Below, piece after piece: positions 1 through 62,311 of a stretch of DNA of 64,000 bases. Numbering within the stretch: the first letter of the stretch is position 1; every line of letters begins with the position of its first letter. A model generated the notes under the pieces. That model searched no databases. It was not told where the DNA came from and worked only from the letters and a program-made list of their open reading frames with translations. Position numbers and translations under genes: made by a program. This stretch comes from Mesostigma viride (lineage: Eukaryota; Streptophyta; Mesostigmatophyceae; Mesostigmatales; Mesostigmataceae), in NCBI GenBank assembly GCA_009746045.1, contig RPFO01000253.1:1332888-1396887 (forward strand), read 5' to 3'.

Positions 1-9241
<9,241 letters not shown>

Positions 9242-18553: not shown

Positions 18554-18613
18554 ATAACATCATCATGTTGCCCGATCCATTTTCTCAAGTCGCTGCAGCT
18601 GGATCCTGTCACG

Positions 18614-19455: not shown

Positions 19456-20061
19456 GTGCCTCCTGTACATAAGGGATCTGTACATACCTTGAGTGCTAAT
19501 AATGACAATAAAAGATTTTCTCTCTTGTATGACATTGCCTCAAGGTTGCATACCATGTTTGGCCATGCAGCTCAGTCTTTGCAAGTTGCTAGACGGCTGG
19601 GAGGAAGTGAGTTGTACTCCATCTGCCAACAGGTTGCTCAGCATACAGGAGAACTGCTGGTCGGTGAACCAAGTTGCCCCTGGGTATCTGATTTCAGTGG
19701 TAGGACGCATGTAAGGGTGTTGGGAGAGGTTACTGCCCCTGTCATGGGTGTGGATGTGACCTTCCTTGTCCTAGAGGACTATGATGGCCCTGTAATTTTG
19801 GGTCAGAATTTTCTGGGCAATCCTGGGATTTCTATCAGAGCTACAGCTCTGAGAAGAGATGGCTGGGGGATGATTCCCCTAGAAAATTTCAGGACAACAT
19901 TTCCAGTCAGGTGCAGGGCCAAGCCGGTCAAGGGTGTAAAATGGGATGAAGGGGAGGTGCCCCCAGCAGCCAGTTTGGTGATTCCAGCTGACAGTGTTGC
20001 ACCCCAGCAGTATTGGCATAACTCACAGGAGCCTTGCTGCACACTCTCCTTTGACATATGA
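19456..20061 (+). pseudogene. pol fragment: integrase zinc domain fused to protease by internal deletion
   Basis: SRLHTMFGHAAQSLQVARRL aligns with the H-x4-H zinc domain of the intact pol (residues 59-78), but the CxxC pair and the whole DDE core are missing. The frame passes straight into protease-like VRVLGEVTAPVMGVDVTF and DYDGPVILGQNFL, lacking the catalytic Asp loop. The order, integrase zinc domain before protease, is the same as in the complete element. 19130-19455 between gag and this piece has stops in the pol frame. It is a non-functional deletion derivative. Confidence 0.75.
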
Positions 20062-20656
20062 CCAGCTAGTCCAAGAGATGAGCTCGCCTACTTTGTTTGA
20101 GGCTTGGAAGCTCGCCTTCTCCAAGGCATTGGAGGAGTGGTTGCAGTTTGAGTGTGCTGCACCAACAGACAGACGTCCCCCAGCATCAAGGAAGCTTGCT
20201 TTGAGATTTGTGCTGAAGAGGAAGGTTGTGGATGAGGTATCAGTGCCCCATGTCAGGCCTGTCCTGAATGAGTATCACGGCACGGGGAGTCTGCCAGGAG
20301 AGGAGCTGTACACGCCAGGGATGTTACACGACACATGGAGAATTTTGCTATGTCTCTACGTGGGGTTGCTGAACAGGGGAGCAGCTATGTCATCAGTGCT
20401 GCTGGACTTCAAGAGGGCATTTTTAAAATCTGATCCAGAAGTGGCCAGGAGGGTGTGGAAGCAGGATGAGCCTTACTGTGTTGAGGTGCCTGCTATCTGG
20501 AAGCTGGAGCTGCATCAACATTTCCTGGTTATTCTGAAGGGCCTGGAAGGACTCAGGTCGAGCCCAATCATCTGGAGACTCACGCTGCAGGAAGCTCTGA
20601 TCAGTGAGTGTGGCTTGAGAGTGTCTTCAGTTGATCCCTGTTTGTTGAAAGGTTGA
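19994..20656 (+). pseudogene. pol fragment: N-terminal part of Ty1/copia-like reverse transcriptase
   Basis: After a frame change near 20040 the sequence encodes an RT start: TWRILLCLYVGLLNRGA, SSVLLDFKRAFLKSD (first catalytic Asp, as in VLDFSKAFLN of the intact pol) and SVDPCLLKG. It stops at 20656, before the AxDD catalytic box. It belongs with the gag and protease fragments just upstream, one diverged element broken by deletions and frameshifts. Confidence 0.75.
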
Positions 20657-24957: not shown

Positions 24958-25404
24958 ATGCAAGTTTCTAAGGTCAGAGGCAGGTCAGCTGGCTGGTTTG
25001 TGCTTCAGCAACATAGGCCTAGTCTTGTGGCCTGTACAGTCGTCTTCAAAGAAGGGTTGCTGCGGGTTCAGATGTCTCTGAGTGCAGAGCCATTTGTGAT
25101 CGGGATTCAGTCCACTTTGTACATCAAGGAGCTGTTGCTAGCTATGGCTTCAGTGACTCCTCATCCTCTTCAGCTGGAGACCTTGATCCTTTCAGATAAC
25201 ACGGGCATGGTCCATTTTGTGCAAAAGCAGTTGGCCAGGAGCAGAGATCTTGATTATCTCCTGTTGAAGGAGTTGGCAGGTCTGGTAGATATCCAACATC
25301 TGCCAGGTTCTGAGAATCCTTCAGATGCCTTGACCAAGTTGTCTCACACGTCGGCTGAGCAATATAAGCTAAGTCTTTATAAGGTGATGAGCTCCTCTGT
25401 GTGA
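24958..25404 (+). pseudogene. pol fragment: RNase H C-terminal part
   Basis: SKVRGRSAGWFVLQQHRPSL, then LETLILSDNTGMVHFVQKQL and GSENPSDALTKLSHTSAEQY align by eye with residues 1036-1176 of the intact pol. The SDN and SDALTK positions correspond to D1116 and D1159. It ends in TGA at 25402-25404. The RT catalytic box and connection domain are missing between this and the RT fragment ending at 20656, so the two may or may not come from one element. 25405-25570 has no gene. Confidence 0.8.
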
Positions 25405-33179: not shown

Positions 33180-34265
33180 TGCACTCTACCAGTGTCAAGA
33201 TGTCTTGCCATTGGTGTCAAACTTGAGGATTATTAGTGTCTGGCCCTAGCCAGGTACCCACTTTTCCTAGCCCTCATAATTCCTTGTAGAAGAGAACTTG
33301 GTCTCCTTCCCTGAAGCTATCACGTGGATGCGTTGCATCCTTGGCAGCTAATTTGCTGGCGGCCTGTGCTCGCTGTGCGTAGTAACGGGCTAGTACCTCT
33401 GCATGGTGGGTTTATTCCTGCCAGTAATCCATCTGGTGTATAATAATGAGACCCCCCTGCATGAGGAGTTGTCATGAGTGGCCTCCTACTGTATTGAGTA
33501 CAGCATGGTTGACCACAATGCTCTGTCTGCATATGACCCATGACTGTCAGCCAGGCTATTACCTTCTTAATCCTTAGCTACAATGGTTAAAATCGACCTA
33601 ATGGCCCTTTCAATGGTATACCTTGCCTCTCATGATCTTCCAGCCCTGCCAGGTCAATAGCCTCACACCCTGGCTCATTGGCAACGCAAGTACTACTGCT
33701 GATCAAGAAGCAGTGCCTCCACAGGGTAGTACCTGGCTTCAGCAATTAATCAAGAGAGCCCTGAGCAACTGTGATTTGTCCATACCATGCAGGTTTAACA
33801 ATTATATTGTGGTATATAGTAGCCTGGCCCATGCGAAATATGATTGCCCTTTTATATGAACGTCATCACCAACCACTCTGCCCTTGCACTTAGGTGGAGT
33901 AGCTACATGCCACTTAGGCGGTTTGGGATCATTGAACTGACAATTAATGCTGACAGCTAGTGGGATCTGACCACCTGGCATGCACCTCAGAGTGCTGCCC
34001 CCCCTAGTTTAGCTGCTACCATGCACCTCTGCACTGACTTCATGCCCATAAAGGAAGTGCAGCTGTATATAACGCGAGCTCATCAATACTGATATGAGGT
34101 GATGCTGTGGTGGATGCCCGGGAAACCTTGGGAACCACACATATGAATGTGGGTTTAGTGACATAGTAGTAGTCTTCTTTGACCAACATCAACACCTTGC
34201 CAGTCCTGCTGACTGACCTGCCAGAGGGGCATGCAGATGGAGGGTTTAAAGAGGACACACCATGA
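33180..34265 (-). pseudogene. Degenerate integrase region of an AGTT-family retrotransposon
   Basis: Read on the minus strand with many stops and shifts, pieces align by eye with the intact pol. GLEDHERQGI matches GREDHTGQGIVER around the catalytic Glu, and RYYAQRAQAASKLAAKDATH followed by FREGDQVLFYKE matches the C-terminal VGDLVWVHKEG segment. It is old and unable to encode a protein. The sequence left of it (32.6-33.2 kb) has open minus frames of uncertain origin. Confidence 0.5.
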
Positions 34266-34473
34266 CAGTCATCAAAGGAAAACTCACTCTAGTAGGGAGA
34301 GCGCCTGCAGTTGGCTGGGTCGCCGTGATGCGGCCCCGAAAGCACTTGTGGCAGAGCACTGCATCCAGGTGTCCCAGCTTTCTCCTCGTTATTGCGGCAG
34401 TCCTCCTTGCGTTGCCACGCCGTACCGCACAGTGTGTGCACCGCAGCTGCTGTCGCTCCTTCTTCTTCAAGAG

Positions 34474-34971
<498 letters not shown>

Positions 34972-34974
34972 ACT

Positions 34975-35329
34975 TGTTGCCCTTGCCCTTGCCCCTGCCC
35001 TTGCATGCCCTTGCCCTTGCCCTTGCCCTTGCTCTTGCCCTTGCCCTTGCCCTTGCCCTTGCCCTTGCCCTTGCCCTTGCCCTTGCCCTTGCCCTTGCCC
35101 TTGCCCTTGCCCTTGCCCTTGCCCTTGCCCTTGCCCTTGCCCTTGCCCTTGCCCTTGCCCTTGCCCTTGCCCTTGCCCTTGCCCTTGCCCTTGCCCTTGC
35201 CCTTGCCCTTGCCCTTGCCCTTGCCCTTGCCCTTGCCCTTGCCCTTGCCCTTGCCCTTGCCCTTGCCCTTGCCCTTGCCCTTGCCCTTCACCTTGCCCTT
35301 CACCTTGCCCTTCACCTTGCCCTTCCCCT
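34975..35329. repeat. CCCTTG hexanucleotide array (~355 bp)
   Basis: About 58 copies of CCCTTG, nearly perfect, with CACCTTGCCCTT variants at the right edge. It starts four bases after the TTG array, with which it shares the TTG core. 35345-35690 beyond it has no recognisable gene. Confidence 0.97.
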
Positions 35330-35705
35330 GATCCTTATATAAATTACTGCCCCAGCAGCGACTTAACATCATGGCAATGGTGGGAGGCCTCTAATCTTAT
35401 ACTCCCTAGCCTGCCCCTTCTCCTCCTCCTCCCCCTCCACCCTGACCCTCTTCTTGACATTGGGGTCCCCGTTGCTGAGGGGGGCCAGGGCCAGCTTGAT
35501 GTGGCACCTTCATATTCTCCCAACCATGATGCCTAGCCGATCCTGTGGAGAGCATAGATAGGTGTTACGATCAAGTCTCAGTTTCTCCAAGAAGGAATGC
35601 AGCCAGAATTCGGGATCTATAAACTGCTGGACATCGCTCATGGCGAGCCTTAATAGCCAATTCCCACCACTACTTGGTCTCGGCTACGTAGTCATGGGTG
35701 ACCAC

Positions 35706-40455: not shown

Positions 40456-43044
40456 CCTAGCCACCGTCAGCCTTGTACATGTACGCCTATTACGGGCCCC
40501 ATACCAGCTGATGCCTTACCATTATTTGGCCACGTACATGTGTGGCTATGATGTGCCACCCACCAGACGATGACTAGCTTGATTTAGTTAGTTATGCTGT
40601 GCCCATGCAGAGAGCTACTCTAGCTAGACTGCTGAGCCGCCATGCCCTAGCCATGGTTGGTTGTTTAGCCATGATGATCTTCCACCCCATGCCAGGCCTT
40701 TCCGACACGAGATGAGCTCTGATACATCATGGTGGTGTAGGTGCACCTGGTGTATCAAAAGCGATCTGCCCCTTCTCAGGGATATGTGCTACATGTACTC
40801 CCAACGGAGTTATGTTCTTCATTAATTAATGGGTGCCCATCAAGGGACACCTGCACCGCCATGCTATTCCATAGCACTAGAGCTCGCAAATGGGGTGGAA
40901 GATAACTTATCTTCCATGGGCCATGGCTAATCAATAGCTAATCAGTACCTAGGGTACACGACATCTCAGAAGAGAGTGGCTCGCTGCATGGGCAAAGTAT
41001 AACGAGGTTGGCAATGTGTGGCTAGTTGTGGCTAAGACAAGGCTGTTCATCATGGGCCGTGGGCTACATTTACAATTGTATCATTCTCGCTGCTGCTGTA
41101 CAGGTCCCTAAGCTGCTGGGGCCGGGAGCTTACATGGCTTGTGGTCGACGTAGATGGCATCCCCCCTCGAGTAGACCTGTTAACACACTTAACATAACCA
41201 ATCCCAGCACAGGCTGGCAGATCTAACCGAATCTGTCCTACGTTCAAATTGTTATGAATACACTTTAGATTTGTCAGCACTTGAGAGTGTACTGGGCCCT
41301 CAAAGAGCCTTCACAACTGCCAGTGAGCTCCGTAAATCAGACCCTGCTTGGATCATGCCCCGACAAATGAGGGCCGCGTACACAAGTCCTAATTTGGCTC
41401 AAAGTCTCGCGGCTCTGAAGAACTTGGAGACTGTATAGCTTTCTCAGTACTTGTCCAAAAGTCCTCTGATAAAAACAGAATTGTAGCCAAAACTTGGGAT
41501 GTAACAACTTTTGGTTGTTACACAACCCAACTGCAAAACACTCTTTACCAGAGAGTAGTACCAGTTGATCTGATATTGTGCTAGAAATACTACTGAGCCC
41601 GTGGTGCAAACGAGCACTACACTTGACGTGTGTCCACTGCGATACCGTCCACTGCGATCCCCAGAAACACTTGACGTGTCCACTGCGATACCCAGAAACG
41701 CGAGACTGGTTGATCACTAAGACACAGAACTTACATTAATTAACTAACATTTTACATTTGGTATTTAAAATTAACGCATACATTATTTTATTTGTTTTTA
41801 ACGGACATGGATGTCAGGGTGAATCGTATGCGTCGTAGTCTCCAGAAGGCATTGAATCAAAGCAAACAATGCCATCTCAGCAACACAGTTTTAACCTTGA
41901 TCAATAACACATTAACCTTGATCAATAACACACCCTTGCGTCTTGTGAGTATAATCCTAATGAAAATGCTGAATGGACAGCTCGGGTTATATGCACGCAG
42001 CGTGCAATATCAAATGCATACACAGCAGCGACCGGGTTTGTTCCACCTGTCCCCTCGGAAGATCCGATTTCGGATGGGAACTCCCAAAGTGTCAGAACAT
42101 ATTCAAGCGGGGATCCCAATCCTATTCAAAATACACAGGATTGGGTTTAAGAGGACGTGACCGGCTTGATCGCAGCTGGGGTGGAGGTGGCACGTTGTCG
42201 TACTCTGCGCCACGGACCATCACAACCATGAAAATGCCATTGGACCCAATACACGGAATGAGACCGTCGCCAACATTCACTTTCAAGTGCCTATTTCGAA
42301 TGCATGGGCATATAGTAAGACATAAACAATATTGACAGAAGACTAACAGACTGCTAATGTCACGCACCATGAGTACGCTGTATTACTAAATTACATTTTC
42401 AGGGCTGATGAATTTACTGCTGGCTTATACACACAGTTCATTGTAGCCACCCGACTTGACCCGAGGCCATTATAGCTTCATAATATAACAATTGTGATTC
42501 TATCTTGGTGATTGAAGTGAATGGGACAAACTGCCTGTTGTGTTTATGGCTGCCTACGGCAGCCAGCTAGCACAATTTGCAGTATTTAGAGCTACTTGAG
42601 GAATTGTGCCAATTAGGGAACGGATGCTTAGGAAAGGTTGTGTCAGAGAAAGGGAAGATACAGTAGCGATAGAATATCATATCGTCCAAGTACAGGTTGC
42701 ACATGATGGAAATACTATAAATCCAACGACAACACTATAAATCCAACGACAACAACAGTCTTTAGACTTTATTCCTCTGTCTAAGCCAGTGTAGTAGCCG
42801 CTGGGTAGTAGCATAACAACACGACCAAACGGGACTTACCTCGCCCTGGCCTTCCAAGCTTTCCCCCCGACTTCCCATGTGATCTTCCATGCTTGGCAGT
42901 TGCCTCGGCTGCTGAAACGCACATGGCCGCAAGATACAGACAAGGCACACGCCGGTGAGTACCAGGTACAGGACATGAGTAGTCTATTTCCCCTACTCAT
43001 TATTAATGAGAACCCAATTTCAAAGGTGGCTTTCAAACTACCAA

Positions 43045-44160
43045 CCTCCCTCCCTCCCCTCCCTCCCCTCCTCCCTCCCTCCCTCCCCTCCCCTCCCTCC
43101 CTCCCTCCCCCATCCCTGCCTCCCTCCCCCATCCCTCCCTCCTCCCTCCCTCCCTCCCTCCCTCCCTCCCTCCCTCTCTCCCTCCCTCCCTCCCTCCCTC
43201 CCTCCCTCCCTCCCTCCCTCCCTCCCTCCCTCCCTCCCTCCTCCCTCCCCCCCACATCTCTCCCTCCCTCCCCCCCACATCTCTCCCTCCCTCCCTCCCT
43301 CCCTCCCTCCCTCCCTCCCTCCCTCCCTCCCTCCCTCCCCCATCCCTGCCTCCCTCCCCCATCCCTCCCTCCCCCCCTCCCTCCCTCCTCCCTCTCTCCC
43401 TCCTCCCTCCCTCCCTCCCTCCCTCCTCCCTCCCTCCCTCCCTCCCTCCCTCCCTCCCCCCACATCTCTCCCTCCCTCCCCCCCACATCTCTCCCTCCCT
43501 CCCTCCCTCCCTCCCTCCCTCCCTCCCTCCCTCCCTCCCTCCCTCCCTCCCTCCCTCCCTCCCTCCCTCCCCCATCCCTCCCTCCCTCCTCTCCCTCCCT
43601 CCCTCCCTCCCTCCCTCCCTCCCTCCCTCCCTCCCTCCTCCCTCCCTGCCTCCCTCCTTCCATCCCTCCCTCCCTCCCTCCCTCCTCCCTCCCTCCCTCC
43701 CTCCCTCCCTCCCTCCCTGCCTCCCTCCTTCCATCCCTCCCTCCTCCCTCCCTCTCCCTCCCTCCCTCCCTCCCTCCCTCCCTCCCTCCCTCCCTCCCTC
43801 CCTCCCTCCCTCCCCCCACATCTCTCCCTCCCTCCCCCCACATCTCTCCCTCCCTCCCTCCCTCCCTCCCTCCCCCTCCCTCCCTCCCTCCCTCCCTCCC
43901 TGCCTCCCTCCCCCACATCTCTCCCTCCCTCCCTCCCTCCCTCCCTCCCTCCCTCCCTCCCTCCCTCCCTCCCTCCCTCCCTCCCTCCCTCCCTCCCTCC
44001 CTCCCTCCCTCCCTCCCCCCCTCCCCCCCATCCCTCCCTCCCTCCCTCCCCATCCCTCCCTCCCTCCCTCTCCCTCCCTCCCTCCCTCCCTCCCTCCCTC
44101 CCTCCCTCCCTCCCTCCCTCCCTCCCTCCCTCCCTCCCTCCCTCCCTCCCTCCCTCCCTC
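43045..44160. repeat. TCCC microsatellite (~1.1 kb) with higher-order structure
   Basis: (TCCC)n interrupted periodically by CCCCACATCTCT and CCCCATCCCTGCC blocks, which themselves recur as pairs near 43.25, 43.46 and 43.82 kb. Expansion has therefore copied longer segments as well as tetramers. 44165-45480 to the right has no recognisable gene. Confidence 0.97.
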
Positions 44161-45488
44161 AAATGTAAGGAGGGCTCGTTATTAACCAGTAATAGTTGCG
44201 CTATCTATCATCATTACTATTATCTAAACCGCCACGCCACAAAAAGTCAAACTCATGTAACTATAACGTACCAACTAAGTATTATTCAATATTAGCACTT
44301 ATTAGATTTTGTTCAGGGAAATCCTCCCACTTCATCTCCAGAACTCATGCACACGGCTTTCAGACCACGAGAACCACACTCTTGAAACTAGAAGAGTAAT
44401 CACACTTTTCATATGGTGGTCTAGAATGCGTGCAAGGGGCCTCATGATGGAGAGAAAAAAGACACGAGATCCTAAACATGACCAGCATCATATGTAAAGA
44501 TACAAACATATTAGTCCAAGCCCGGGAGGACAACGGTCATACCGTTGGTTGGAAATGGCAAGGCATGCTGTGAGCAAAAAGGAAAGTGAAAACATTAAAG
44601 GCTCTTCTTACCCCCATACGTACCCAAACAGCAAACTACATGCTGGGTCCGTGATGATTAATTTTAGGTAATGCATTTCGCGTACGACGTCGGCCATGCT
44701 AAATTGCGTCGCCACGACTAAGAAACAAAAAAAGTGGACTGGTTTCGTTAGCAGCAATTAAGGACTAAATTTAAGGGGGGGCAACAATTGCACAAAAGTT
44801 CTTGCGCCACGAATACAGCTCATTATAAGCAATTGTTTGCCTCACCATGAAGGGCGAGGTTGCCCAACATGGAGGATAACTCGACTGCACGAAAAAAGGG
44901 ATGCACACGGACACACGCATGGACGGAAGCAGGTATATAGTTAGGCGTGTTCATGACACTGCATATATGCCTTCATAACATTAACAACGTACCGTGTTGC
45001 ACATACATGTACTTGTGGTGGGCACTCTTGTACGCCTACATATCTAGCTCAGCCCTGTCCACACACTTCCTTGCTTGCCTCCCTGCTTGCTTGCTGAGTG
45101 CGTGTCCTCATGCCTGCCTGGATGCCTACTTTTCAGTTTCTTCACCCCCTCTTGACATTCACCGTCCAAGGCAGAATTGATCTAGGTGTAACAATCTGCA
45201 TTCTCAAAGTATACCCTGAATGAAGGTACAGAAGTTCTTGGCATGACATCAACGTAACCCCATCAACATAACCCGGTTCACGAGGAACTATCACAACCAC
45301 CCCCCTACGATTTATTACTCCACATTTTCAGGCCAATCAAAGTTACAACAAGCAAACCCAAGTGTTGTGCCTCAACCTCAAGAAGTCTATGCTGCCAAAC
45401 TTGACTTCCAAGCCTCCCCCGCGTCAGCCACTCCAAGGGGAGGAATGCTTATCAATATTTTATAGCTACCTTGGCTCGTCGTACTCAC

Positions 45489-49383: not shown

Positions 49384-49473
49384 CATGTGCGGGTGTTGGC
49401 TAAGCATGGCTAACCGGGTAAGGTATCCGGTACGAACCTACACGGACAATGTTGGCAAGGCTGGGCCTATTAG

Positions 49474-52400
49474 GCGCCAGCGGTTCACGTGGGTGCGCAA
49501 TGCTCAGGAAAACTGAAGGCCCCAGGGCAGGACAGCGCTATGGAGCATAGGAGGCTCCTGGCAGTAGACGATGTAGGCAGTTTTATGGCCGATGCTGCGG
49601 ATGTTAAGGCAATATCAAACTTGATCAATACAGATCCAATTTTCAAGTATGCCTGTGCGTCTCGGTTTCACATCTTCTTTGGCCATGGAACAAACGCTTA
49701 CAAGTTTGCTAGGGCTTTTGGTGGGGCGCCAATGCTGGAAGCATGTCGTGAGTGTTACGAAAATTGTCCACAATGTCAATCGTCGGGCCCCAAGCCTCCT
49801 CGCCACCATGTAAAGCATCCACCTGCGAGAAAGGGGAAATCGTAGGTGATGTGCTGTTCTGGGCACACATGCCATACTTTATTGCAATAGATAGATATGC
49901 TCACAACGTAGCTGTAGTTCCTTTGCGTCATATGGAAGCCGCCGACCTGGCAGAAGCCATTGATGTCTCTTCGTCCTTTTTCTCACCACTCGAGTCAATA
50001 CAGATGGACAGGCAGTTCGCGTGTCTAGAGGGCCAGCCTGGATTTGAATGCCTCAAGACAGTTGGGCGTGAGGACCACACTGGTCAGGGTATAGTGGAGC
50101 GTGCCGTGCAAGAATTCAAGCAAGCTGCACGGAGACAAGGTGATGCATCCCTTTCAGCATACGCAGCCCGCCTCATGTGGGCGTTGCGGATTTGTGCATG
50201 CCTTAATCGGCGTGTGTTGTTGTCCATTCCTTCTCGCAATGTGGTGATAACAGCTGAGGGATTGCAGCACGGCCACTACCCACCAGAGATAGAAGAGGAG
50301 TGGGCACGCCATTTGCAGGGTAGATTTGCCAACCTGGTACGAAGGGATACACGTAGGCCGGTTACCGCCTATAGTGTAGGAGACCTGGTTGGGTGCATAA
50401 AGAGGGCCCCTTTGGAAAGAGGGGACAGTGGAATGGTCCAGCCACGGTAGTGTCCGTGGATGGGAGTGTGCGCAAGGCCGTTGTTTCCTTGCAGGACAAG
50501 CAATACCACATCCCGTGGAGCAAGCTCAAGCACTATCAACCGAACACAAGTGCGTGGGAGCGCCTTCTGCACTACTACGAGGACGCGGACAACTTCTTGC
50601 GGCCTCCACCAGGTGACGTGATTGCCCCTCTTTTACCCATGCCTGCCTCTGACCCTATGCAAATGTCTGCCGAAGCTCGGGAGGTAGAGGACGATGAGCA
50701 TGTTGAGGAGGACGGTGATCTGGTGGCACTTGCTGCAGATGTGCAGAGCTTAGCTCGCGAGCCCCCTGCTGACCTGCGCGAGGGTAGTAGGGAGGGCATT
50801 ACCCCTGCCGTTAGCCAGGGTCCGGCTGCCGTTAGTCAGCCTCGCCGGGGTGGTGGGTTGCTCAGCAAGATTGTTCTAGGGCTGCGCCGGGACAATAACA
50901 TGGGGTTAGGCTCCCTTCGCCGCCCACCACAGACTGCAGGCGTACCCCCTCAGCTGGGCCCGAGCACTGCAGTCATCTCTTCCTTGTTAACCTCTAGGGC
51001 GCTGAATTGTGGGCTCCTCATTGATACCCAGGCCCAGGTCTCTATTATCGGGGCCAACTGTGTAGACTTTCCTTTGCTGCCCTCTCATTGGACTCAGGTC
51101 ACTGATTTTGCTAGGTCAGGGTCCTACAAGGTCCTGGGGGAATTTCCCTTAACCATCCTCGGCGCAGACACGCCCATGTGTGTGGTAGAGGGGTATGATG
51201 GGCCCGCCTTATTAGGACAGCCGTTCTTGACGCTACCCGGGGTTACAGTGAGCAGCACACAGCTGTCCCGAGCGGGGTTTGGCTGCATGCGATTGAATAA
51301 TTTTTCCCTCGATGTCGCTGCTCGGGGTCTCTCATTGCCTATGGTGGCTGCCATGAAAGGGGTAGAGTACAAGGATTCTGAATTGCCTCCTGCCCGCGAT
51401 CTTCTCACCCCTAAAGCCCTCACCCCTGACAGCTTGGGGATTAGCTTCCACGATGTTGCCACTGAAAGCCCCATGTCCTTCCATGATGTTGCCAGGCACG
51501 TCTCAACCGAGGAAGGGCTAGACAATACCCAAGGGGCTATGCTGGCTGCAGGGGAACGATGGTTAGGACTGGGTTGTGTGGAGCCAGTGGACCTAGTCCC
51601 AAGGGATGGCCGGTTGCTTCGTTTCAAATGGACCTTCCAGATGAAGCCGGTTCCCGGCACTGACAGGAAAGTAGAGTTTGCTAGACCTGTGGTGCTAGAA
51701 TTTTCTGGATCTTCTGACCTGCCCTCCTCAGCCCTGACTGCCCCGGGCTTAAATAAAGACACTTGGCGATTGTTAGTGTGCTTTCATCTCGGGCGCCTCA
51801 ACAAAGGCTTGCCGCATGGCTCCGCGGTGCTGGATTTTTCTAAGGCCTTCCTTAACGGGGATTCAGATGAGACGGCTAAATTGTGGGAGGGCACCACACC
51901 GCTGTATGTTAGGACACCCAAGATGTGGGAACCTATTGTGGGCAAGAAGTTCATGAGGTTGGTGAAGGCTGTGGATGGGACCGTGGCCGGGCCGCGGGCG
52001 TGGCGCAAGAGTTTAGAGCGCCTTCTACTTAACCGCGCACGCATGATGTACAGCGACCTGGACCCCTCCTTGTTTGTTGGTGTCTGGAAGGGGGAGCTCG
52101 TGTTTGTTTTCGTGCATGCCGATGACTGTGACTGCCTGGGGCCACGGGAGTGGATTGTGTGGTTCCATTCGCTCGTGCACTCAGTGTACCCTGTGGGCAA
52201 GCTCGTCTTTAGGGAGCCGGGCAAGATCGTGCCCTTCATGGGCATGGACACTATTCTCGATCACGATGAGCAAGGGCAGTGGGTCATGTTGCTGCATCCT
52301 AAGGGTAGCTATGTCCCCGACCTGGTCAAGGAGGTCATGGCCCGCACTGGGCCTATCCTTCCCTCTGAGTGTGGTGCGCTGCGTGGCAAACTCAATTGGC

Positions 52401-53056
52401 TTGCGTGTACCACGAGCCCTGACTTGGCTGTCCTTAGTCGGTTGACAGACGATGTTCTCTGCTTGTTGGCCCGCCCGGTTGTAGCTGAGTATGTGCAGGC
52501 CTCACCGGGGTTGGTCCTGCAGGGTGTTGACTGGGACAAGCCCATCGAGCTAGGGGCTTATTGTGACAGTTCTTTGGATGCGCGGGTGCTCACCAAGATG
52601 CGTGGTAGGTGTGCGGCTGTTAGCTATATCTCAAACGCTGACCAATCTGCGCCATCCTCCATCTTTGCGTGGTTCTCACGTCTACACCGCCGTGTGTATG
52701 TGGGGTCGGACACCGCCGAGGCGCGTGCGTATTGCGAGGCTGCAAGTGAGCTCGCGTATTTCCACGCGCTACTCTGCTGGATCCTCAAGCTGGGCGGTCT
52801 CACCACACGCATCGATCGCGTCATGCGCACCGACAGCCAAGCGCTGGTGGACTTCATTGAGAACCCCTACGCTCGCACGAGAGACCTTGACTTCCTCCGG
52901 GTGAAGGAATTTTCTGATGCGCTCCATACCGAGCACGTGGCAGGCGACCAGAATTGCTCGGATGCTCTTACCAAGCTCTATAGCTCCGCCAAGGCACAGT
53001 ATACTCTTCTTAGGCACCAAATGAACAATATGTCGCTGGGTCAGCCACGGCACTAG
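49474..53056 (+). pseudogene. pol of copy 1, split by two one-base gaps
   Basis: It is the same protein as copy 2 (integrase, protease, reverse transcriptase, RNase H) but in three frames. G4 at 49833-49836 replaces G5, after the integrase zinc domain. T2 at 50389-50390 replaces T3, in the VGDLVWVHKE segment. From 50393 to 53056 the frame is uninterrupted through protease, RT and RNase H. Both breaks are homopolymer shortenings, so they could be assembly errors instead of true mutations. Confidence 0.85.
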
Positions 53057-53273
53057 TTGAGATGTCGTGGAGTGTGAATGGCCCCTTGACTCGGGTTTTA
53101 CCTTGGTAGGTTTTCCCGGTAGCGATGCTATGGTGTAATTTGTTTGGCTGGGGATTACCCTCCAAAACCATGTGGGGCCTAAGGTGCGTTCATGATGGCA
53201 AGGCCTGCGCGGCCGTAGTTCTTACAGATTTGAGTACGCAGTCCTATTGCCACATGAAAAAAGAAAGGGCTGG

Positions 53274-53778
53274 AGTTGCAATCTGTTGCTTGACCGAAAT
53301 GCGTGTATAAACTGGTGCATGCATAATGGAATGTAAATCTGTGAAACAATACTCACAATTGCTGCACACAGCTTGTGTACATGACCATGGTGGCAGTATA
53401 GCCAAGCTGATGCATTATAACTAGTGGTCGCGCTGACTGCATGTTGAGCACTGACTGTCGGTCAGGCTGTTGAAGTCGTGCCAAGGATTGATGAGATAAA
53501 ACACCCCTTCAGCGGGCAGACGAATACGGCAATATTCCCTGCTAATGGATATTTGTAAATGGTTCTAGAAGCGTCTAGAAGCATTGTGCAACGCTGGCGT
53601 AACGCTAGTTCAGTGTGCCTCTTGGAAATCGCTAATGCACATGAAATGTGATTGGTGCAATGACGATAAGGCCTATCGCAATCTTGGGGTTGCACACATG
53701 ACTTGTAACCATATAAATTGATAATAAACCCAGGCACCTAGGGCCGCATTCTTGCAAGCATCATTCTCAATCTCAACT
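53274..53778 (+). repeat. 3' LTR of copy 1
   Basis: 505 bp from AGTTGCAATC to TCTCAACT, preceded by the polypurine tract GAAAAAAGAAAGGGCTGG. It matches the 3' LTR of copy 2 except at 53742. Confidence 0.9.
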
Positions 53779-54331
53779 CCACTAGCTGCCCCTTGATGGG
53801 CTTGTAGTCCAGGTATTCTTGCTTCAGGTGGGACCCATCTATGGTCCTCTTGTCACTCAGGAACACCCTGAGTCGCGTCATAAACGCCGCCCAGGTGTCC
53901 CCCGCCGCGTGTCGCTCCCGAACAAACTTGAACAGCCGCCTCGCCGACTGCCTTATGTAGGCACTAGACGCCAGGATGCGAAGCTTGTCACCGGTGTATA
54001 TCTCCGTGTACAAGTTCATGTCCTCTAACATCCTCTCAGCATCTCGGGGCTGCCAATTGTCCTTGATGGACTGAAACTGGCCTAGCACCGCGTACCCCTC
54101 AGCCACGGTCGGTCGCTTAGGCGCCGCTTGATCTGCGGCTGGCGCGTTCTGACCGCCCTGCGATCCTTGGCTCTGATTATCTGGCACCTCAGCCTGGTCT
54201 CCTAGCGCCTGGCCGTCCCCGCGTCCATCGCGTCCACCGCGTCCATCGCGTCCATCTCGTCCATCCATCCCAGCGCCGCGCCGCGCGAAGCCCATAAAGC
54301 CCGCTTGTTGGTTGATAGCTCCATCATCCAT
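53779..54331 (-). CDS. gag-like or unidentified ORF truncated by retrotransposon copy 1
   Basis: A minus-strand ORF begins MDDGAINQQAGFMGFARRG, runs through Gly/Arg/Asp repeats, and then a folded region: LEDMNLYTEIYTGDKLRILA, SAYIRQSARRLFKFVRERHA, DTWAAFMTRLRVFLSDKRTI. The last part resembles the helical core of a gag capsid (Trp-x-x-Phe-x-x-x-Leu). The frame runs into the copy 1 LTR at 53778, so the C-terminus was lost on insertion. The ORF upstream on this strand (54434-55354) may be an earlier part of the same gene. Confidence 0.4.
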
Positions 54332-54433
54332 GATGGCCTTTGTTCAGATCTGCTACAGCCAGCCAAGTGGCCAAGCAGCAATTAAAGCAATATAAGCTAC
54401 TGAACAAGAAAAGAAAGTGCCAAGTGTTACCAC

Positions 54434-55354
54434 TCAGGCAAGACCACCACGGTTGGCCCCAGGCGCGTCCTGGTTCTCCTTGTCGCTGTCGTCGTCGCTG
54501 TCGCTCACCACAATCAGCTCTGGCACCCTGCTCCCCGCTGCGCCGTCGTCGACCCGCTGTCGGCCCGCGATGACTGAATCGTCACCGTTGGTATAGTAGA
54601 CAGGTGACAACCCGTCGTGGGCACCCCGAGGATTGTATCTTGGCACCTCGTGGTCGCCAAGTGTCTCGTCGCCTAGCCCAGCGACACCCCCTGCTCCCAC
54701 CTCAAGGTCACTATCGTACCCAAGAGGTGCAAACTCCTCCCAACGCGTCACACGAACGCGAAGGGGCTGGGGCAGTTCCTGAAAAGGAACCCTTGCTCGC
54801 TCCGGAAACCTGCCGACTCTTGCCGCGCGCTGTCTTCCGGTGATGCCTTCCGCTGTCGCCCCGACCTCTGCAAGCCGCCTGTAGTGCTCCGCTCCGCGTC
54901 GTTCACGTCGAACTGGTCCCGCTGCAACACCCTCGTCGCCGATGACGCCTGCGAAAGTACGTTGTAAACCCGCACCCGCTGCTGTCGGTACAAACTCGTG
55001 TCGCCCTGCGCCAGCTGCCTCCGCAACCTCGCCTCGCCTTGCCGCCAACTCCGCACGCACTCGCTCAGCTACTGCTGTAATCACCGTCTGGATGCCGACC
55101 AAACCGTGAAGCTCCTGCTCGAGGTCGTCGATGCTCCGGTGCTCCGGAATGACGATGGTTTGTACGTGCCGCAGAATTCGCTCCCAATCTTCGACCTGGT
55201 CGTCGACGAATTGCACGAAGCTGCGATTTACAGGCGGACGATCTGCAAGCAATAAAGATAGATCTCGAACGACACGACGCAATTCAGGAGAAATCGAACC
55301 CCCAGCAGACTGCCGAAATCGGAAATCCTGCTGCCGTTGTTCCTCCTGCACCAT
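54434..55354 (-). CDS. Unidentified ORF, 306 codons
   Basis: It begins MVQEEQRQQDFRFRQSAGGS and continues through a helical N-terminal region (SFVQFVDDQVEDWERILRHV), an Ala/Arg/Glu-rich middle (VAERVRAELAARRGEVAEAA) and an acidic end SDSDDDSDKENQDAPG. I do not recognise it. Coiled-coil N-termini and acidic tails occur in gag-like and chromatin proteins. The next ORF on this strand starts about 100 bp downstream; no GT-AG intron keeps both frames, so they may be separate or frame-broken. 55355-56120 has no gene. Confidence 0.4.
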   Translation of the reverse strand: MVQEEQRQQDFRFRQSAGGSISPELRRVVRDLSLLLADRPPVNRSFVQFVDDQVEDWERILRHVQTIVIPEHRSIDDLEQELHGLVGIQTVITAVAERVRAELAARRGEVAEAAGAGRHEFVPTAAGAGLQRTFAGVIGDEGVAAGPVRRERRGAEHYRRLAEVGATAEGITGRQRAARVGRFPERARVPFQELPQPLRVRVTRWEEFAPLGYDSDLEVGAGGVAGLGDETLGDHEVPRYNPRGAHDGLSPVYYTNGDDSVIAGRQRVDDGAAGSRVPELIVVSDSDDDSDKENQDAPGANRGGLA

Positions 55355-56556: not shown

Positions 56557-56561
56557 CAAGA

Positions 56562-57062
56562 AGTTGCAATCTGTTGCTTGACCGAAATGCGTGTATAAAC
56601 TGGTGCATGCATAATGGAATGTAAATCTGTGAAACAATACTCACAATTGCTGCACACAGCTTGTGTACATGACCATGGTGGCAGTATAGCCAAGCTGATG
56701 CATTATAACTAGTGGTCGCGCTGACTGTTGAGCACTGACTGTCGGTCAGGCTGTTGAAGTCGTGCCAAGGATTGATGAGATAAAACACCCCTTCAGCGGG
56801 CAGACGAATACGGCAATATTCCCTGCTAATGGATATTTGTAAATGGTTCTAGAAGCGTCTAGAAGCATTGTGCAACGCTGGCGTAACGCTAGTTCAGTGT
56901 GCCTCTTGGAAATCGCTAATGCACATGAAATGTGATTGGTGCAATGACGATAAGGCCTATCGCAATCTTGGGGTTGCACACATGACTTGTAACCATATAA
57001 ATTGATAATAAACCCAGGCACCTAGTGCCGCATTCTTGCAAGCATCATTCTCAATCTCAACT
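56562..57062 (+). repeat. 5' LTR of copy 2
   Basis: 501 bp, AGTTGCAATC...TCTCAACT. It lacks four bases (GCAT or CATG) near 56730 that both other LTRs keep. The minus-strand 91-codon frame found in each LTR is incidental. Confidence 0.95.
56996..57001 (+). promoter_or_regulatory. TATA box candidate in the 5' LTR
   Basis: TATAAA in CCATATAAATTGATAATAAA lies about 65 bp before the LTR end and 85 bp before the gag ATG, a sensible place for the element's promoter. AATAAA a few bases later could serve as the poly(A) signal in the 3' LTR. Confidence 0.5.
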
Positions 57063-57085
57063 CGTACTCAAAGCTGCTATTTACA

Positions 57086-58042
57086 ATGGCTCGCGGTTCC
57101 CGTTCCGACACGGACGCCATTCAGTTGACTGGCGATGGTGCCGATGCTTACAAGGAGCTGCGACAGCACGAACTGGTGGTTCGCATGCTGCCAGAGCCGT
57201 TGGCCGACAAGGCTACGGACAAGGAAAACCGTGACTTTGTCTGGGCAATCAAGGCCTGGGAGGAGAAAGTCCGCACGGTAGTGAAGACTCCCGCGCAGAT
57301 TTTTCGGATCTTGCGGGGGGCTCCACTGGCCAGCAAAGGGCCGCAGGCGGTGCGGGACCTGATTCGGATCGCCCAGGAGAAGGCATGGGACTGGAATCAG
57401 TTCCTTGAGCGGCTCACTGAGCTTCTCGCGCCGACAGGGCTGGTGAAGTCCATCAAGGACGTCATGCAGATTCTGACGTTCGAAGTGTCCGGTGACACTG
57501 CCAAGGCCACGCTGGCCTTCGAGCGGATGCTCGAAGAAACCAATCTAAAATTTGCTGATGATTTTTCGGTGGTCCTGTTCTTGGGCAAGGCCCTTGGCAG
57601 CGGTGCTATGTCAGAAAGCACCGTGCAGAGTCTGGCGTCCGTCCTGACCAAGGAGAAGCTGGCGAGCAAGGCTGCTGCTTTCGCCTGCATCCGCGAGATC
57701 ATGGCGCTCGGTGGCGCTGCTCAGGAGCTGGCCGGCAAGGGTGCCGTGAAGCCGACGCCAGCAGTCAATGCCGATGGCCCTGCCATCAGGGCCGTTTTTG
57801 GCGCCGGTGACGGGCGCCTGAAGTGTCCTCGCTGCCAGGGGACTGGTCACACCCGCGAGACCTGCAAGGCCAACAAGGCTTTCCCGTTGGGGACGAACCT
57901 GTGTGGCAAGTGCCATAAGCCAGGGCACAAGGCCCGGTTTTGCAAGTCGCGGACTGCTGCCAACCAGGCGGACAATGTTGGCAAGGCTGGGCCTATTAGG
58001 CGCCAGCGGTTCACGTGGGTGCGCAATGCTCAGGAAAACTGA
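57086..58042 (+). CDS. gag: gag polyprotein, two CCHC zinc knuckles
   Basis: 318 codons from an ATG only 24 bases after the 5' LTR to TGA at 58040-58042. Residues 1-210 form a mostly helical capsid-like region (FVWAIKAWEEKVRTVVKTPA, WDWNQFLERLTELLAPTGLV, AKATLAFERMLEETNLKFAD). The nucleocapsid part has CPRCQGTGHTRETC (247-260) and CGKCHKPGHKARFC (273-286), both C-x2-C-x4-H-x4-C, followed by a basic tail. Gag should assemble cytoplasmic particles and bind element RNA. Its last codons overlap the pol frame by 43 nt, and the slippery GGAAAAC sits immediately before its stop. Confidence 0.9.
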   Translation: MARGSRSDTDAIQLTGDGADAYKELRQHELVVRMLPEPLADKATDKENRDFVWAIKAWEEKVRTVVKTPAQIFRILRGAPLASKGPQAVRDLIRIAQEKAWDWNQFLERLTELLAPTGLVKSIKDVMQILTFEVSGDTAKATLAFERMLEETNLKFADDFSVVLFLGKALGSGAMSESTVQSLASVLTKEKLASKAAAFACIREIMALGGAAQELAGKGAVKPTPAVNADGPAIRAVFGAGDGRLKCPRCQGTGHTRETCKANKAFPLGTNLCGKCHKPGHKARFCKSRTAANQADNVGKAGPIRRQRFTWVRNAQEN

Positions 58043-61000
58043 AGGCCCCAGGGCAGGACAGCGCTATGGAGCATAGGAGGCTCCTGGCAGTAGACGATGT
58101 AGGCAGTTTTATGGCCGATGCTGCGGATGTTAAGGCAATATCAAACTTGATCAATACAGATCCAATTTTCAAGTATGCCTGTGCGTCTCGGTTTCACATC
58201 TTCTTTGGCCATGGAACAAACGCTTACAAGTTTGCTAGGGCTTTTGGTGGGGCGCCAATGCTGGAAGCATGTCGTGAGTGTTACGAAAATTGTCCACAAT
58301 GTCAATCGTCGGGCCCCAAGCCTCCTCGCCACCATGTAAAGCATCCACCTGCGAGAAAGGGGGAAATCGTAGGTGATGTGCTGTTCTGGGCACACATGCC
58401 ATACTTTATTGCAATAGATAGATATGCTCACAACGTAGCTGTAGTTCCTTTGCGTCATATGGAAGCCGCCGACCTGGCAGAAGCCATTGATGTCTCTTCG
58501 TCCTTTTTCTCACCACTCGAGTCAATACAGATGGACAGGCAGTTCGCGTGTCTAGAGGGCCAGCCTGGATTTGAATGCCTCAAGACAGTTGGGCGTGAGG
58601 ACCACACTGGTCAGGGTATAGTGGAGCGTGCCGTGCAAGAATTCAAGCAAGCTGCACGGAGACAAGGTGATGCATCCCTTTCAGCATACGCAGCCCGCCT
58701 CATGTGGGCGTTGCGGATTTGTGCATGCCTTAATCGGCGTGTGTTGTTGTCCATTCCTTCTCGCAATGTGGTGATAACAGCTGAGGGATTGCAGCACGGC
58801 CACTACCCACCAGAGATAGAAGAGGAGTGGGCACGCCATTTGCAGGGTAGATTTGCCAACCTGGTACGAAGGGATACACGTAGGCCGGTTACCGCCTATA
58901 GTGTAGGAGACCTGGTTTGGGTGCATAAAGAGGGCCCCTTTGGAAAGAGGGGACAGTGGAATGGTCCAGCCACGGTAGTGTCCGTGGATGGGAGTGTGCG
59001 CAAGGCCGTTGTTTCCTTGCAGGACAAGCAATACCACATCCCGTGGAGCAAGCTCAAGCACTATCAACCGAACACAAGTGCGTGGGAGCGCCTTCTGCAC
59101 TACTACGAGGACGCGGACAACTTCTTGCGGCCTCCACCAGGTGACGTGATTGCCCCTCTTTTACCCATGCCTGCCTCTGACCCTATGCAAATGTCTGCCG
59201 AAGCTCGGGAGGTAGAGGACGATGAGCATGTTGAGGAGGACGGTGATCTGGTGGCACTTGCTGCAGATGTGCAGAGCTTAGCTCGCGAGCCCCCTGCTGA
59301 CCTGCGCGAGGGTAGTAGGGAGGGCATTACCCCTGCCGTTAGCCAGGGTCCGGCTGCCGTTAGTCAGCCTCGCCGGGGTGGTGGGTTGCTCAGCAAGATT
59401 GTTCTAGGGCTGCGCCGGGACAATAACATGGGGTTAGGCTCCCTTCGCCGCCCACCACAGACTGCAGGCGTACCCCCTCAGCTGGGCCCGAGCACTGCAG
59501 TCATCTCTTCCTTGTTAACCTCTAGGGCGCTGAATTGTGGGCTCCTCATTGATACCCAGGCCCAGGTCTCTATTATCGGGGCCAACTGTGTAGACTTTCC
59601 TTTGCTGCCCTCTCATTGGACTCAGGTCACTGATTTTGCTAGGTCAGGGTCCTACAAGGTCCTGGGGGAATTTCCCTTAACCATACTCGGCGCAGACACG
59701 CCCATGTGTGTGGTAGAGGGGTATGATGGGCCCGCCTTATTAGGACAGCCGTTCTTGACGCTACCCGGGGTTACAGTGAGCAGCACACAGCTGTCCCGAG
59801 CGGGGTTTGGCTGCATGCGATTGAATAATTTTTCCCTCGATGTCGCTGCTCGGGGTCTCTCATTGCCTATGGTGGCTGCCATGAAAGGGGTAGAGTACAA
59901 GGATTCTGAATTGCCTCCTGCCCGCGATCTTCTCACCCCTAAAGCCCTCACCCCTGACAGCTTGGGGATTAGCTTCCACGATGTTGCCACTGAAAGCCCC
60001 ATGTCCTTCCATGATGTTGCCAGGCACGTCTCAACCGAGGAAGGGCTAGACAATACCCAAGGGGCTATGCTGGCTGCAGGGGAACGATGGTTAGGACTGG
60101 GTTGTGTGGAGCCAGTGGACCTAGTCCCAAGGGATGGCCGGTTGCTTCGTTTCAAATGGACCTTCCAGATGAAGCCGGTTCCCGGCACTGACAGGAAAGT
60201 AGAGTTTGCTAGACCTGTGGTGCTAGAATTTTCTGGATCTTCTGACCTGCCCTCCTCAGCCCTGACTGCCCCGGGCTTAAATAAAGACACTTGGCGATTG
60301 TTAGTGTGCTTTCATCTCGGGCGCCTCAACAAAGGCTTGCCGCATGGCTCCGCGGTGCTGGATTTTTCTAAGGCCTTCCTTAACGGGGATTCAGATGAGA
60401 CGGCTAAATTGTGGGAGGGCACCACACCGCTGTATGTTAGGACACCCAAGATGTGGGAACCTATTGTGGGCAAGAAGTTCATGAGGTTGGTGAAGGCTGT
60501 GGATGGGACCGTGGCCGGGCCGCGGGCGTGGCGCAAGAGTTTAGAGCGCCTTCTACTTAACCGCGCACGCATGATGTACAGCGACCTGGACCCCTCCTTG
60601 TTTGTTGGTGTCTGGAAGGGGGAGCTCGTGTTTGTTTTCGTGCATGCCGATGACTGTGACTGCCTGGGGCCACGGGAGTGGATTGTGTGGTTCCATTCGC
60701 TCGTGCACTCAGTGTACCCTGTGGGCAAGCTCGTCTTTAGGGAGCCGGGCAAGATCGTGCCCTTCATGGGCATGGACACTATTCTCGATCACGATGAGCA
60801 AGGGCAGTGGGTCATGTTGCTGCATCCTAAGGGTAGCTATGTCCCCGACCTGGTCAAGGAGGTCATGGCCCGCACTGGGCCTATCCTTCCCTCTGAGTGT
60901 GGTGCGCTGCGTGGCAAACTCAATTGGCTTGCGTGTACCACGAGCCCTGACTTGGCTGTCCTTAGTCGGTTGACAGACGATGTTCTCTGCTTGTTGGCCC

Positions 61001-61584
61001 GCCCGGTTGTAGCTGAGTATGTGCAGGCCTCACCGGGGTTGGTCCTGCAGGGTGTTGACTGGGACAAGCCCATCGAGCTAGGGGCTTATTGTGACAGTTC
61101 TTTGGATGCGCGGGTGCTCACCAAGATGCGTGGTAGGTGTGCGGCTGTTAGCTATATCTCAAACGCTGACCAATCTGCGCCATCCTCCATCTTTGCGTGG
61201 TTCTCACGTCTACACCGCCGTGTGTATGTGGGGTCGGACACCGCCGAGGCGCGTGCGTATTGCGAGGCTGCAAGTGAGCTCGCGTATTTCCACGCGCTAC
61301 TCTGCTGGATCCTCAAGCTGGGCGGTCTCACCACACGCATCGATCGCGTCATGCGCACCGACAGCCAAGCGCTGGTGGACTTCATTGAGAACCCCTACGC
61401 TCGCACGAGAGACCTTGACTTCCTCCGGGTGAAGGAATTTTCTGATGCGCTCCATACCGAGCACGTGGCAGGCGACCAGAATTGCTCGGATGCTCTTACC
61501 AAGCTCTATAGCTCCGCCAAGGCACAGTATACTCTTCTTAGGCACCAAATGAACAATATGTCGCTGGGTCAGCCACGGCACTAG
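58000..61584 (+). CDS. pol: pol polyprotein with order integrase-protease-reverse transcriptase-RNase H
   Basis: The frame opens at 58000 with no early ATG; residue numbers here count from 58015. Integrase: H61-x4-H66 and C93-x2-C96, then D121, D174 and E204 (GQGIVER) as the DDE triad, then a GPY/F-like GQWNGPATVV. Protease: LLIDTQAQVSIIG with D513 (DTQ where DTG or DSG is usual) and the flap-end ALLGQPFL at 574-581. Reverse transcriptase of Ty1/copia type: VLDFSKAFLNGD (D783), GPRAWRKSLERLL, SDLDPSLFVG and FVHADD (D879, D880; usual YVDD). RNase H: D1027, E1078, D1116, D1159. Integrase before protease is the striking feature. Copy 1 and the relative at 19.5 kb support that the order is real. 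Confidence 0.92.
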   Translation, partial: APAVHVGAQCSGKLKAPGQDSAMEHRRLLAVDDVGSFMADAADVKAISNLINTDPIFKYACASRFHIFFGHGTNAYKFARAFGGAPMLEACRECYENCPQCQSSGPKPPRHHVKHPPARKGEIVGDVLFWAHMPYFIAIDRYAHNVAVVPLRHMEAADLAEAIDVSSSFFSPLESIQMDRQFACLEGQPGFECLKTVGREDHTGQGIVERAVQEFKQAARRQGDASLSAYAARLMWALRICACLNRRVLLSIPSRNVVITAEGLQHGHYPPEIEEEWARHLQGRFANLVRRDTRRPVTAYSVGDLVWVHKEGPFGKRGQWNGPATVVSVDGSVRKAVVSLQDKQYHIPWSKLKHYQPNTSAWERLLHYYEDADNFLRPPPGDVIAPLLPMPASDPMQMSAEAREVEDDEHVEEDGDLVALAADVQSLAREPPADLREGSREGITPAVSQGPAAVSQPRRGGGLLSKIVLGLRRDNNMGLGSLRRPPQTAGVPPQLGPSTAVISSLLTSRALNCGLLIDTQAQVSIIGANCVDFPLLPSHWTQVTDFARSGSYKVLGEFPLTILGADTPMCVVEGYDGPALLGQPFLTLPGVTVSSTQLSRAGFGCMRLNNFSLDVAARGLSLPMVAAMKGVEYKDSELPPARDLLTPKALTPDSLGISFHDVATESPMSFHDVARHVSTEEGLDNTQGAMLAAGERWLGLGCVEPVDLVPRDGRLLRFKWTFQMKPVPGTDRKVEFARPVVLEFSGSSDLPSSALTAPGLNKDTWRLLVCFHLGRLNKGLPHGSAVLDFSKAFLNGDSDETAKLWEGTTPLYVRTPKMWEPIVGKKFMRLVKAVDGTVAGPRAWRKSLERLLLNRARMMYSDLDPSLFVGVWKGELVFVFVHADDCDCLGPREWIVWFHSLVHSVYPVGKLVFREPGKIVPFMGMDTILDHDEQGQWVMLLHPKGSYVPDLVKEVMARTGPILPSECGALRGKLNWLACTTSPDLAVLSRLTDDVLCLLARPVVAEYVQASPGLVLQGVDWDKPIELGAYCDSSLDARVLTKMRGRCAAVSYISNADQSAPSSIFAWFSRLHRRVYVGSDTAEARAYCEAASELAYFHALLCWILKLGGLTTRIDRVMRTDSQALVDFIENPYARTRDLDFLRVKEFSDALHTEHVAGDQNCSDALTKLYSSAKAQYTLLRHQMNNMSLGQPRH
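58033..58039 (+). promoter_or_regulatory. Candidate -1 frameshift site G-GAA-AAC
   Basis: The heptamer directly precedes the gag TGA. A one-base backward slip gives CTG AAG GCC, the pol frame. The pol frame is closed by TAG at 57997-57999, so any slip must occur between 58000 and 58042. GGAAAAC differs from the strict X-XXY-YYZ pattern but has the strong A-AAC A-site end. Confidence 0.55.
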
Positions 61585-61783
61585 TTGAGATGTCGTGGAG
61601 TGTGAATGGCCCCTTGACTCGGGTTTTACCTTGGTAGGTTTTCCCGGTAGCGATGCTATGGTGTAATTTGTTTGGCTGGGGATTACCCTCCAAAACCATG
61701 TGGGGCCTAAGGTGCGTTCATGATGGCAAGGCCTGCGCGGCCGTAGTTCTTACAGATTTGAGTACGCAGTCCTATTGCCACAT

Positions 61784-61801
61784 GAAAAAAGAAAGGGCTG
61801 G
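61784..61801 (+). other. Polypurine tract of copy 2
   Basis: GAAAAAAGAAAGGGCTGG abuts the 3' LTR and would prime plus-strand DNA synthesis. The same tract precedes the LTRs at 53274 and, nearly, 29183. Confidence 0.8.
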
Positions 61802-62306
61802 AGTTGCAATCTGTTGCTTGACCGAAATGCGTGTATAAACTGGTGCATGCATAATGGAATGTAAATCTGTGAAACAATACTCACAATTGCTGCACACAGC
61901 TTGTGTACATGACCATGGTGGCAGTATAGCCAAGCTGATGCATTATAACTAGTGGTCGCGCTGACTGCATGTTGAGCACTGACTGTCGGTCAGGCTGTTG
62001 AAGTCGTGCCAAGGATTGATGAGATAAAACACCCCTTCAGCGGGCAGACGAATACGGCAATATTCCCTGCTAATGGATATTTGTAAATGGTTCTAGAAGC
62101 GTCTAGAAGCATTGTGCAACGCTGGCGTAACGCTAGTTCAGTGTGCCTCTTGGAAATCGCTAATGCACATGAAATGTGATTGGTGCAATGACGATAAGGC
62201 CTATCGCAATCTTGGGGTTGCACACATGACTTGTAACCATATAAATTGATAATAAACCCAGGCACCTAGTGCCGCATTCTTGCAAGCATCATTCTCAATC
62301 TCAACT
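61802..62306 (+). repeat. 3' LTR of copy 2
   Basis: 505 bp, AGTTG...CAACT, followed by the target duplication CAAGA at 62307-62311. Confidence 0.95.
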
Positions 62307-62311
62307 CAAGA

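Follow-up and report, generated by a model that had tools for sequence, protein, structure and literature searches.

A probably distinct lineage of LTR retrotransposons in Mesostigma viride with integrase ahead of protease in pol

The classification of LTR retrotransposons relies on the order of domains in pol, and two orders are established: protease, integrase, reverse transcriptase and RNase H (PR-INT-RT-RH) in Ty1/copia and PR-RT-RH-INT in Ty3/gypsy. In a stretch of 64,000 nucleotides from the streptophyte alga Mesostigma viride (the whole stretch analysed, hereafter the window), one open frame had been read as a pol of the order INT-PR-RT-RH. The original prediction took this for a distinct lineage, and proposed Pfam searches, an RT phylogeny and a search of the source genome for further copies as checks. 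The locus raises the question of whether the order belongs to a lineage or to one rearranged copy, where its domains come from, and how its Gag-Pol would be made and processed.

Anatomy of the element and the order of domains in pol

The element occupies window positions 56562–62306 on the plus strand and has the hallmarks of an LTR retrotransposon, namely a near-identical LTR pair, a short target duplication, a gag zinc knuckle, RT and RNase H in pol, and a polypurine tract. Between the two copies of the target-site duplication CAAGA (56557–56561 and 62307–62311, strandless), a 501-bp 5′ LTR (AGTTG...CAACT; 56562–57062) is followed by a 23-nt leader with a putative primer-binding site (57063–57085), gag (57086–58042; 318 aa plus stop, with two CCHC zinc knuckles), a putative −1 frameshift site, GGAAAAC, immediately 5′ of the gag stop (58033–58039), pol (58000–61584; a single open frame of 1194 aa), the polypurine tract AAAAAAGAAAGGG, read directly at 61785–61797, and a 505-bp 3′ LTR (61802–62306). 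The LTR termini at 56562–57062 and 61802–62306 are AG...CT, not TG...CA, and the gag ATG stands only 23 nt past the LTR. GTACTC lies directly 3′ of the LTR in the lineage of this element (F1a) and in the lineages F1b and F2 described below; no tRNA matching the putative primer-binding site was found, and the 64-kb window is without a tRNA gene. A M. viride gene model, Mesvir1/24709, matches pol at 100% identity (rounded; one residue differs) over 97%.

Across the 1194-aa frame the motifs run HHCC/DDE, then DTQA from residue 518, LLGQPF from 580, HADD from 882 and RNase H after 1020, in agreement with the predicted placement of INT upstream of PR in one open frame. The integrase (58177–59049) combines an HHCC zinc domain (residues 66–101; H66/H71, C98/C101) with the catalytic triad D126, D179 and E209 and an SH3-like C-terminal region; both motifs had been placed at residues 61–204, a range that stops short of E209. 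A fast-evolving linker (59077–59484; dN/dS ∼0.42 against L033, an F1b copy) leads to the retropepsin-like protease (59512–59859). Its motifs DTQA and LLGQPF lie where an aspartic protease had been predicted, at about residues 510–600, but the first reads DTQA instead of DTGA and the matches to retropepsins are weak. A copia-type RT with HADD (60067–60879) and a copia-type RNase H (61057–61539) complete the frame.

With both patterns written with the sequence in view, the HHCC and DDE spacing occurred in 196 of 20,000 shuffled pol sequences, and none of the 20,000 contained the protease pattern. The integrase motif by itself is therefore just moderately unlikely, and the case for it rests on conservation and fold. 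When pol sequences of F1a, F2, F3 and F4 were aligned, the H, H, C, C, D, D and E of INT, the D, T and A of PR and the DD of RT were all invariant. The INT spacing is D-x52-D-x29-E in four of four lineages; classic integrases have x35 from the second D to the E, a spacing also counted by eye in a copia control from the same genome (L046). The original prediction had recognized neither this INT spacing, nor DTQA in place of DTGA, nor the closer profile scores of INT and PR to Ty3/gypsy described below. The zinc domain has CxxC in F1, F2 and F4, and CKC, one residue short, in F3. Structure comparison of a predicted model gave an RNase-H-like fold with D, D and E in INT, the match rows spanning model residues 75–318 only; structure prediction from a two-row alignment reached a pLDDT of 30 and was uninformative.

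As had been claimed, gag (57086–58039) was free of protease motifs, containing neither D[T/S]G nor hydrophobic-D[T/S][GQNS][A/S]. The protease motif was equally absent from gag and from the gag–INT interval in one copy per lineage of four lineages, the F3 and F4 gags being taken from fetched stretches and possibly incomplete.

Copies and related lineages in the genome

The genome search space comprised 439.9 Mb in 2243 contigs, and the F1a query gave at least 44 matches, at least 9 of them open over residues 1–1194. We examined 16 of 30 F1a loci for element ends. Both LTR ends and an exact 5-bp duplication were present in 8 of the 16, at seven distinct sites, and in the remaining eight the ends lay only partly inside the stretch examined. 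The duplications are CAAGA (L001), TCCTG (L003 and L006, counted as one site because their flanks are the same), CACAG (L005), ACCAA (L007), TGCAG (L008), TTGTT (L009) and TGAGT (L012). The 5′ and 3′ LTRs do not differ from each other in L003, L006 or L007. Identity to the query LTR is 99.8–100% in L003, L005, L006 and L007 and 94–97% in L008, L009 (aligned parts only) and L012, so movement has been partly recent and partly older; the LTRs of L009 are shortened and the pol of L012 has four stops. The window itself holds a second F1a-family copy (49443–53778, plus strand), which is 5′-truncated, 99.9% identical and broken in frame within INT, and an RNase H fragment related to F1a pol (25035–25401).

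The same order recurred beyond F1a. F1b (L031–L037), mostly 65–81% identical to F1a piece by piece, has INT ahead of PR wherever both are present. F2, the family of the gene model P0002, includes L038 and L039, with gag and a 1233-aa pol that has INT first and is 47% identical to F1a; at least 32 of the 55 rows of the F2 search span P0002 residues 19–816 free of stops, with F1 accounting for 14 of the 55. F3 and F4 each gave at least 150 genome matches. The F3 copy L042 has gag, one TGA and then, in the same frame, a 1196-aa pol with a full INT followed by PR. The F4 copy L044 has a 1184-aa pol of the order INT-PR-RT-RH with gag in a different frame, and in L043, 99.2% identical to it, gag, INT and PR share one frame with RT-RH in another, so that the frame changes between gag and INT in L044 and between PR and RT in L043. 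F4 pol is 32–33% identical to that of F1a, F2 and F3. No copy with PR before INT was found among the F1–F4 copies whose frames were read, most copies having been counted only.

Remnants of F3 and F4 also lie in the window. A deleted F3 copy at 18600–20653 (plus strand, start approximate) retains a partial gag with its knuckle, the start of INT, the second half of PR and a partial RT. A related fragment at 19456–20061 had been offered as keeping the same relative order; the order is indeed kept, but the fragment is an F3 deletion derivative and lacks the protease active-site motif, because the start of the zinc domain joins directly to the second half of PR. An interrupted F4 RT/RNase H fragment (13678–14970, plus strand) and a decayed integrase fragment with core and C-terminal region (33235–33942, minus strand), F4 by reading, were also recognized. 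Between the two F1a copies, at 53738–55354 on the minus strand, lies an F3 gag fragment with an adjoining 306-aa open frame, and in L040 the end of a frame similar to this one sits upstream of gag, suggesting an additional upstream ORF in F3. Elsewhere in the genome an F1b element is nested within the protease of an F3 element (L040, L033, L041).

These data leave little room for a rearranged single copy or an assembly artefact. Repeats are prone to misassembly, and frames are broken in the second window copy as well as in the two F4 copies read, yet insertion at seven distinct sites and an order shared by four lineages make such an origin extremely improbable, and the earlier argument against one rearranged copy is upheld. 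The search of the source genome returned the INT-then-PR order again in the F1b, F2, F3 and F4 copies read. The reading of a distinct lineage with INT first in pol is supported, since further copies have the same order, gag is motif-free and a PR profile weakly retrieves retropepsins. As complete F1a elements have LTRs, target duplications and open frames, and as the order recurs in further lineages of the same genome, we consider it very probable that these elements form a distinct LTR-retrotransposon lineage with the polyprotein order Gag-INT-PR-RT-RH.

Searches for relatives outside the source genome found none in viral contigs, genome contigs or proteins, other algal genomes being covered via the protein collection only. 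The protein-collection searches returned two Mesostigma proteins or the query only, and two of them scored just the candidates sharing most words. In the available text of the openly licensed PMC papers searched, no INT-PR-RT-RH element is described. The M. viride genome paper ranks LTR retroelements first among the repeat classes, at 60,339 elements and a figure of 27.9%, and its available passages give no pol orders (PMC6947507). According to the accessible part of a large plant survey, all elements with unexpected domain order were dropped as likely errors, and INT-first lineages can therefore be missed by design (PMC6317226).

Affinities of the pol domains

Pfam searches of pol bore out the predicted domains only in part: RVT_2 in F4 alone passed its cut-off, rve in F4 reached 15.4 bits against 32.6 required, and the INT, PR and RNase H of F1 went unmatched. 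When single proteins or two-row profiles were searched against Pfam and PDB sequences, next to nothing emerged except weak RVT_2. The RT phylogeny, a nine-row tree that carries a long-branch warning, united the F rows in one clade (96/96) and placed copia on the F side of the branch from gypsy (100/100).

We compared four F profiles with eight reference domains by hhalign, using elements from the same genome as copia (L046, L048) and gypsy (L047, L045) controls. Only four pairings stand out in this matrix: INT with gypsy (85%), PR with gypsy (30%), RT with copia (97%) and RNase H with copia (90.5%). RT and RNase H matched gypsy at 0.2% and 1.1%, and against one or two copia references INT reached 0.1–0.3% and PR 0.3–0.6%. 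In 40 template shuffles the maximum was 22.7 for INT (observed 47.6) and 16.6 for PR (observed 25.3). With one gypsy reference at a time, the INT profile fell to 0.5% and 62%; single F members stayed below 6% against copia or gypsy INT, and F2 INT alone scored copia (1.0%) over gypsy (0.4%), both near zero.

The elements thus resemble Ty1/copia (Pseudoviridae) in RT/RNase H type, LTRs and the gag CCHC knuckle but differ in having INT-PR-RT-RH instead of PR-INT-RT-RH, and the copia INT and PR references used went unmatched. With Ty3/gypsy (Metaviridae), the INT and PR profiles score closer and an SH3-like INT C-terminal region is common to both, but INT is last there and first here, and RT/RNase H is not gypsy-type. 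The W.GP of the INT C-terminal region and the CxxCQ look gypsy-like. Comparison of profiles suggests that the lineage probably arose from a gypsy-like INT-PR module joined to a copia-like RT-RH. Such a mosaic is likely rather than shown, because the single-reference and single-member INT scores are weak and F2 slightly favours copia; if true, it would mean that INT-PR and RT-RH were swapped between the copia and gypsy branches. On balance, we lean towards a family-level group with gypsy-like INT-PR and copia-like RT-RH, a third pol order and a new active-site triplet in PR, DT[Q/N], abundant in an early-diverging streptophyte alga and using frameshift or read-through according to lineage.

A true Ty1/copia lineage is a possible but distinctly less probable account: its copia integrase would be very diverged, only the protease would have moved behind it or been newly gained there, and no gypsy module would have been acquired. 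RT and RNase H are copia-like, and INT and PR lean towards gypsy in comparisons with two references from gypsy and two from copia, with weak single scores and an F2 that does not favour gypsy. Copia descent does not readily explain, however, why the INT profile reaches 85% with the two gypsy references but 0.1–0.3% with one or two copia references, given a 97% match between copia and gypsy references, why no INT shuffle approached the observed score, or why W.GP and CxxCQ look gypsy-like.

Other LTR retroelements compared differ from F1–F4. In Gmr1-like gypsy elements INT has also moved and separates PR from RT in a gypsy-type pol, yet PR is still first, unlike in F1–F4. In the available passages on Troyka (PMC12440569), this recently separated LTR retroelement lineage has the order of gypsy and BEL and occurs in animals only; it is a separate lineage like F1–F4, and differs in order and hosts. 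The part of the ICTV Belpaoviridae profile available to us places the Pseudoviridae integrase upstream of the protease, and that of the Pseudoviridae profile names PR, INT and RT-RH in that sequence with the order as such unstated. We take the Belpaoviridae statement to be a slip, since the copia control L046 has PR first (PR-INT-RT-RH).

Protease, selection and synthesis of Gag-Pol

The third active-site residue of PR is Gln in F1, F2 and F4 and Asn in F3, giving DTQ or DTN and not the D[T/S]G triplet; in one F1b copy (L035) Leu replaces the Gln of DTQA. A five-row PR profile gave 11 matches at E ≤10 among PDB sequences (best E 0.024): DDI1, DDI2, ASPRV1, tethered retroviral-type protease dimers, whose matches leave the active site outside the alignment, and one UBA-domain protein taken to be DDI1-like. 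At the level of sequence this signal is weak but specific, for retropepsins and little else. No retropepsin was among the structure matches, whose rows are limited to model residues 75–318, with PR outside.

Selection was estimated between F1a and seven F1b loci, which give near-equal and not independent dN/dS values: 0.10–0.13 for INT, with synonymous sites of the INT core saturated in most comparisons, 0.08–0.09 for PR, 0.07–0.10 for RT and 0.09–0.10 for RNase H. The C-terminal part of INT alone gave 0.23–0.27 and the linker 0.39–0.42. For F1a against F2, where synonymous sites are saturated and most values were not computable, those obtained are higher (PR 0.35, RT 0.14, RNase H 0.25).

Loss of the glycine raises the question of whether DTQ or DTN can stand in for DTG. 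That the DT[Q/N]A domain has lost its protease activity, with cleavage of the polyprotein left to another enzyme or the polyprotein used whole, would fit the Gln of F1, F2 and F4 and the Asn of F3, and the structure comparison did not extend to PR. We regard this as unlikely, since D and T are invariant, dN/dS of PR between F1a and F1b is 0.08–0.09, and the PR profile matches are retropepsins. Some foamy-virus proteases, retropepsins of a different pol order and host, likewise have a non-glycine residue, Gln, at the third position; a paper on a foamy-virus DSQ protease was not found in our literature search.

With INT lying between nucleocapsid and protease, it must also be asked how PR is switched on and how INT matures. 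In F1a, F1b and F2, pol is in the −1 frame relative to gag, which ends in A AAC plus stop (GGAAAAC-TGA, GGGAAAC-TAG in F1b, and AGCAAAC-TAG). GGGAAAC agrees with the classic slip rule, and the F1a and F2 heptamers agree with it less well; no stable stem was found downstream of the F1a site (z 0.66). F1 and F2 would make Gag-Pol by −1 frameshifting on this last gag sense codon and F3 by read-through of its TGA, and reinitiation at the pol ATGs at 58066 and 58111 may be another route to Pol. Synthesis of F4 Gag-Pol from a single frame was considered and dropped, both copies read (L043, L044) having frame breaks.

Movement of F1–F4 would be ordinary copy-and-paste. Gag-Pol dimers in the particle would pair two PR domains. 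As INT lies between nucleocapsid and PR, PR must act within a larger precursor; it would cleave both its own flanks, releasing an INT until then fused to nucleocapsid, and the fast-evolving linker is a possible cleavage region. INT would then insert the cDNA, with a 5-bp duplication as the result.

In another reading, INT would be spliced out and a second RNA would encode a protease-first Pol. Compared with L038:1470–5168, the F2 gene model P0002 omits, in frame and with GT/AG borders in the DNA, a block of exactly 341 residues containing INT (97–437 of pol, INT being at ∼102–399). This gap, however, belongs to a gene prediction only, and the F1a gene model P0001 retains INT, so we think splicing quite improbable; were P0002-type splicing real, F2 would, speculatively, also make a protease-first Pol.

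Two further features were noted. In the gypsy-type L045 (L045:1–4770) of the same genome, the open frame that encodes RT, RNase H and integrase also encodes a C-5 cytosine DNA methylase domain at its N-terminal end (PF00145, E 2.3e-10) and a PHD finger at its C-terminal end. Long simple-repeat arrays at window positions 6641–7581, 34213–35390 and 42798–44295 leave several reading frames free of stops over hundreds of codons.
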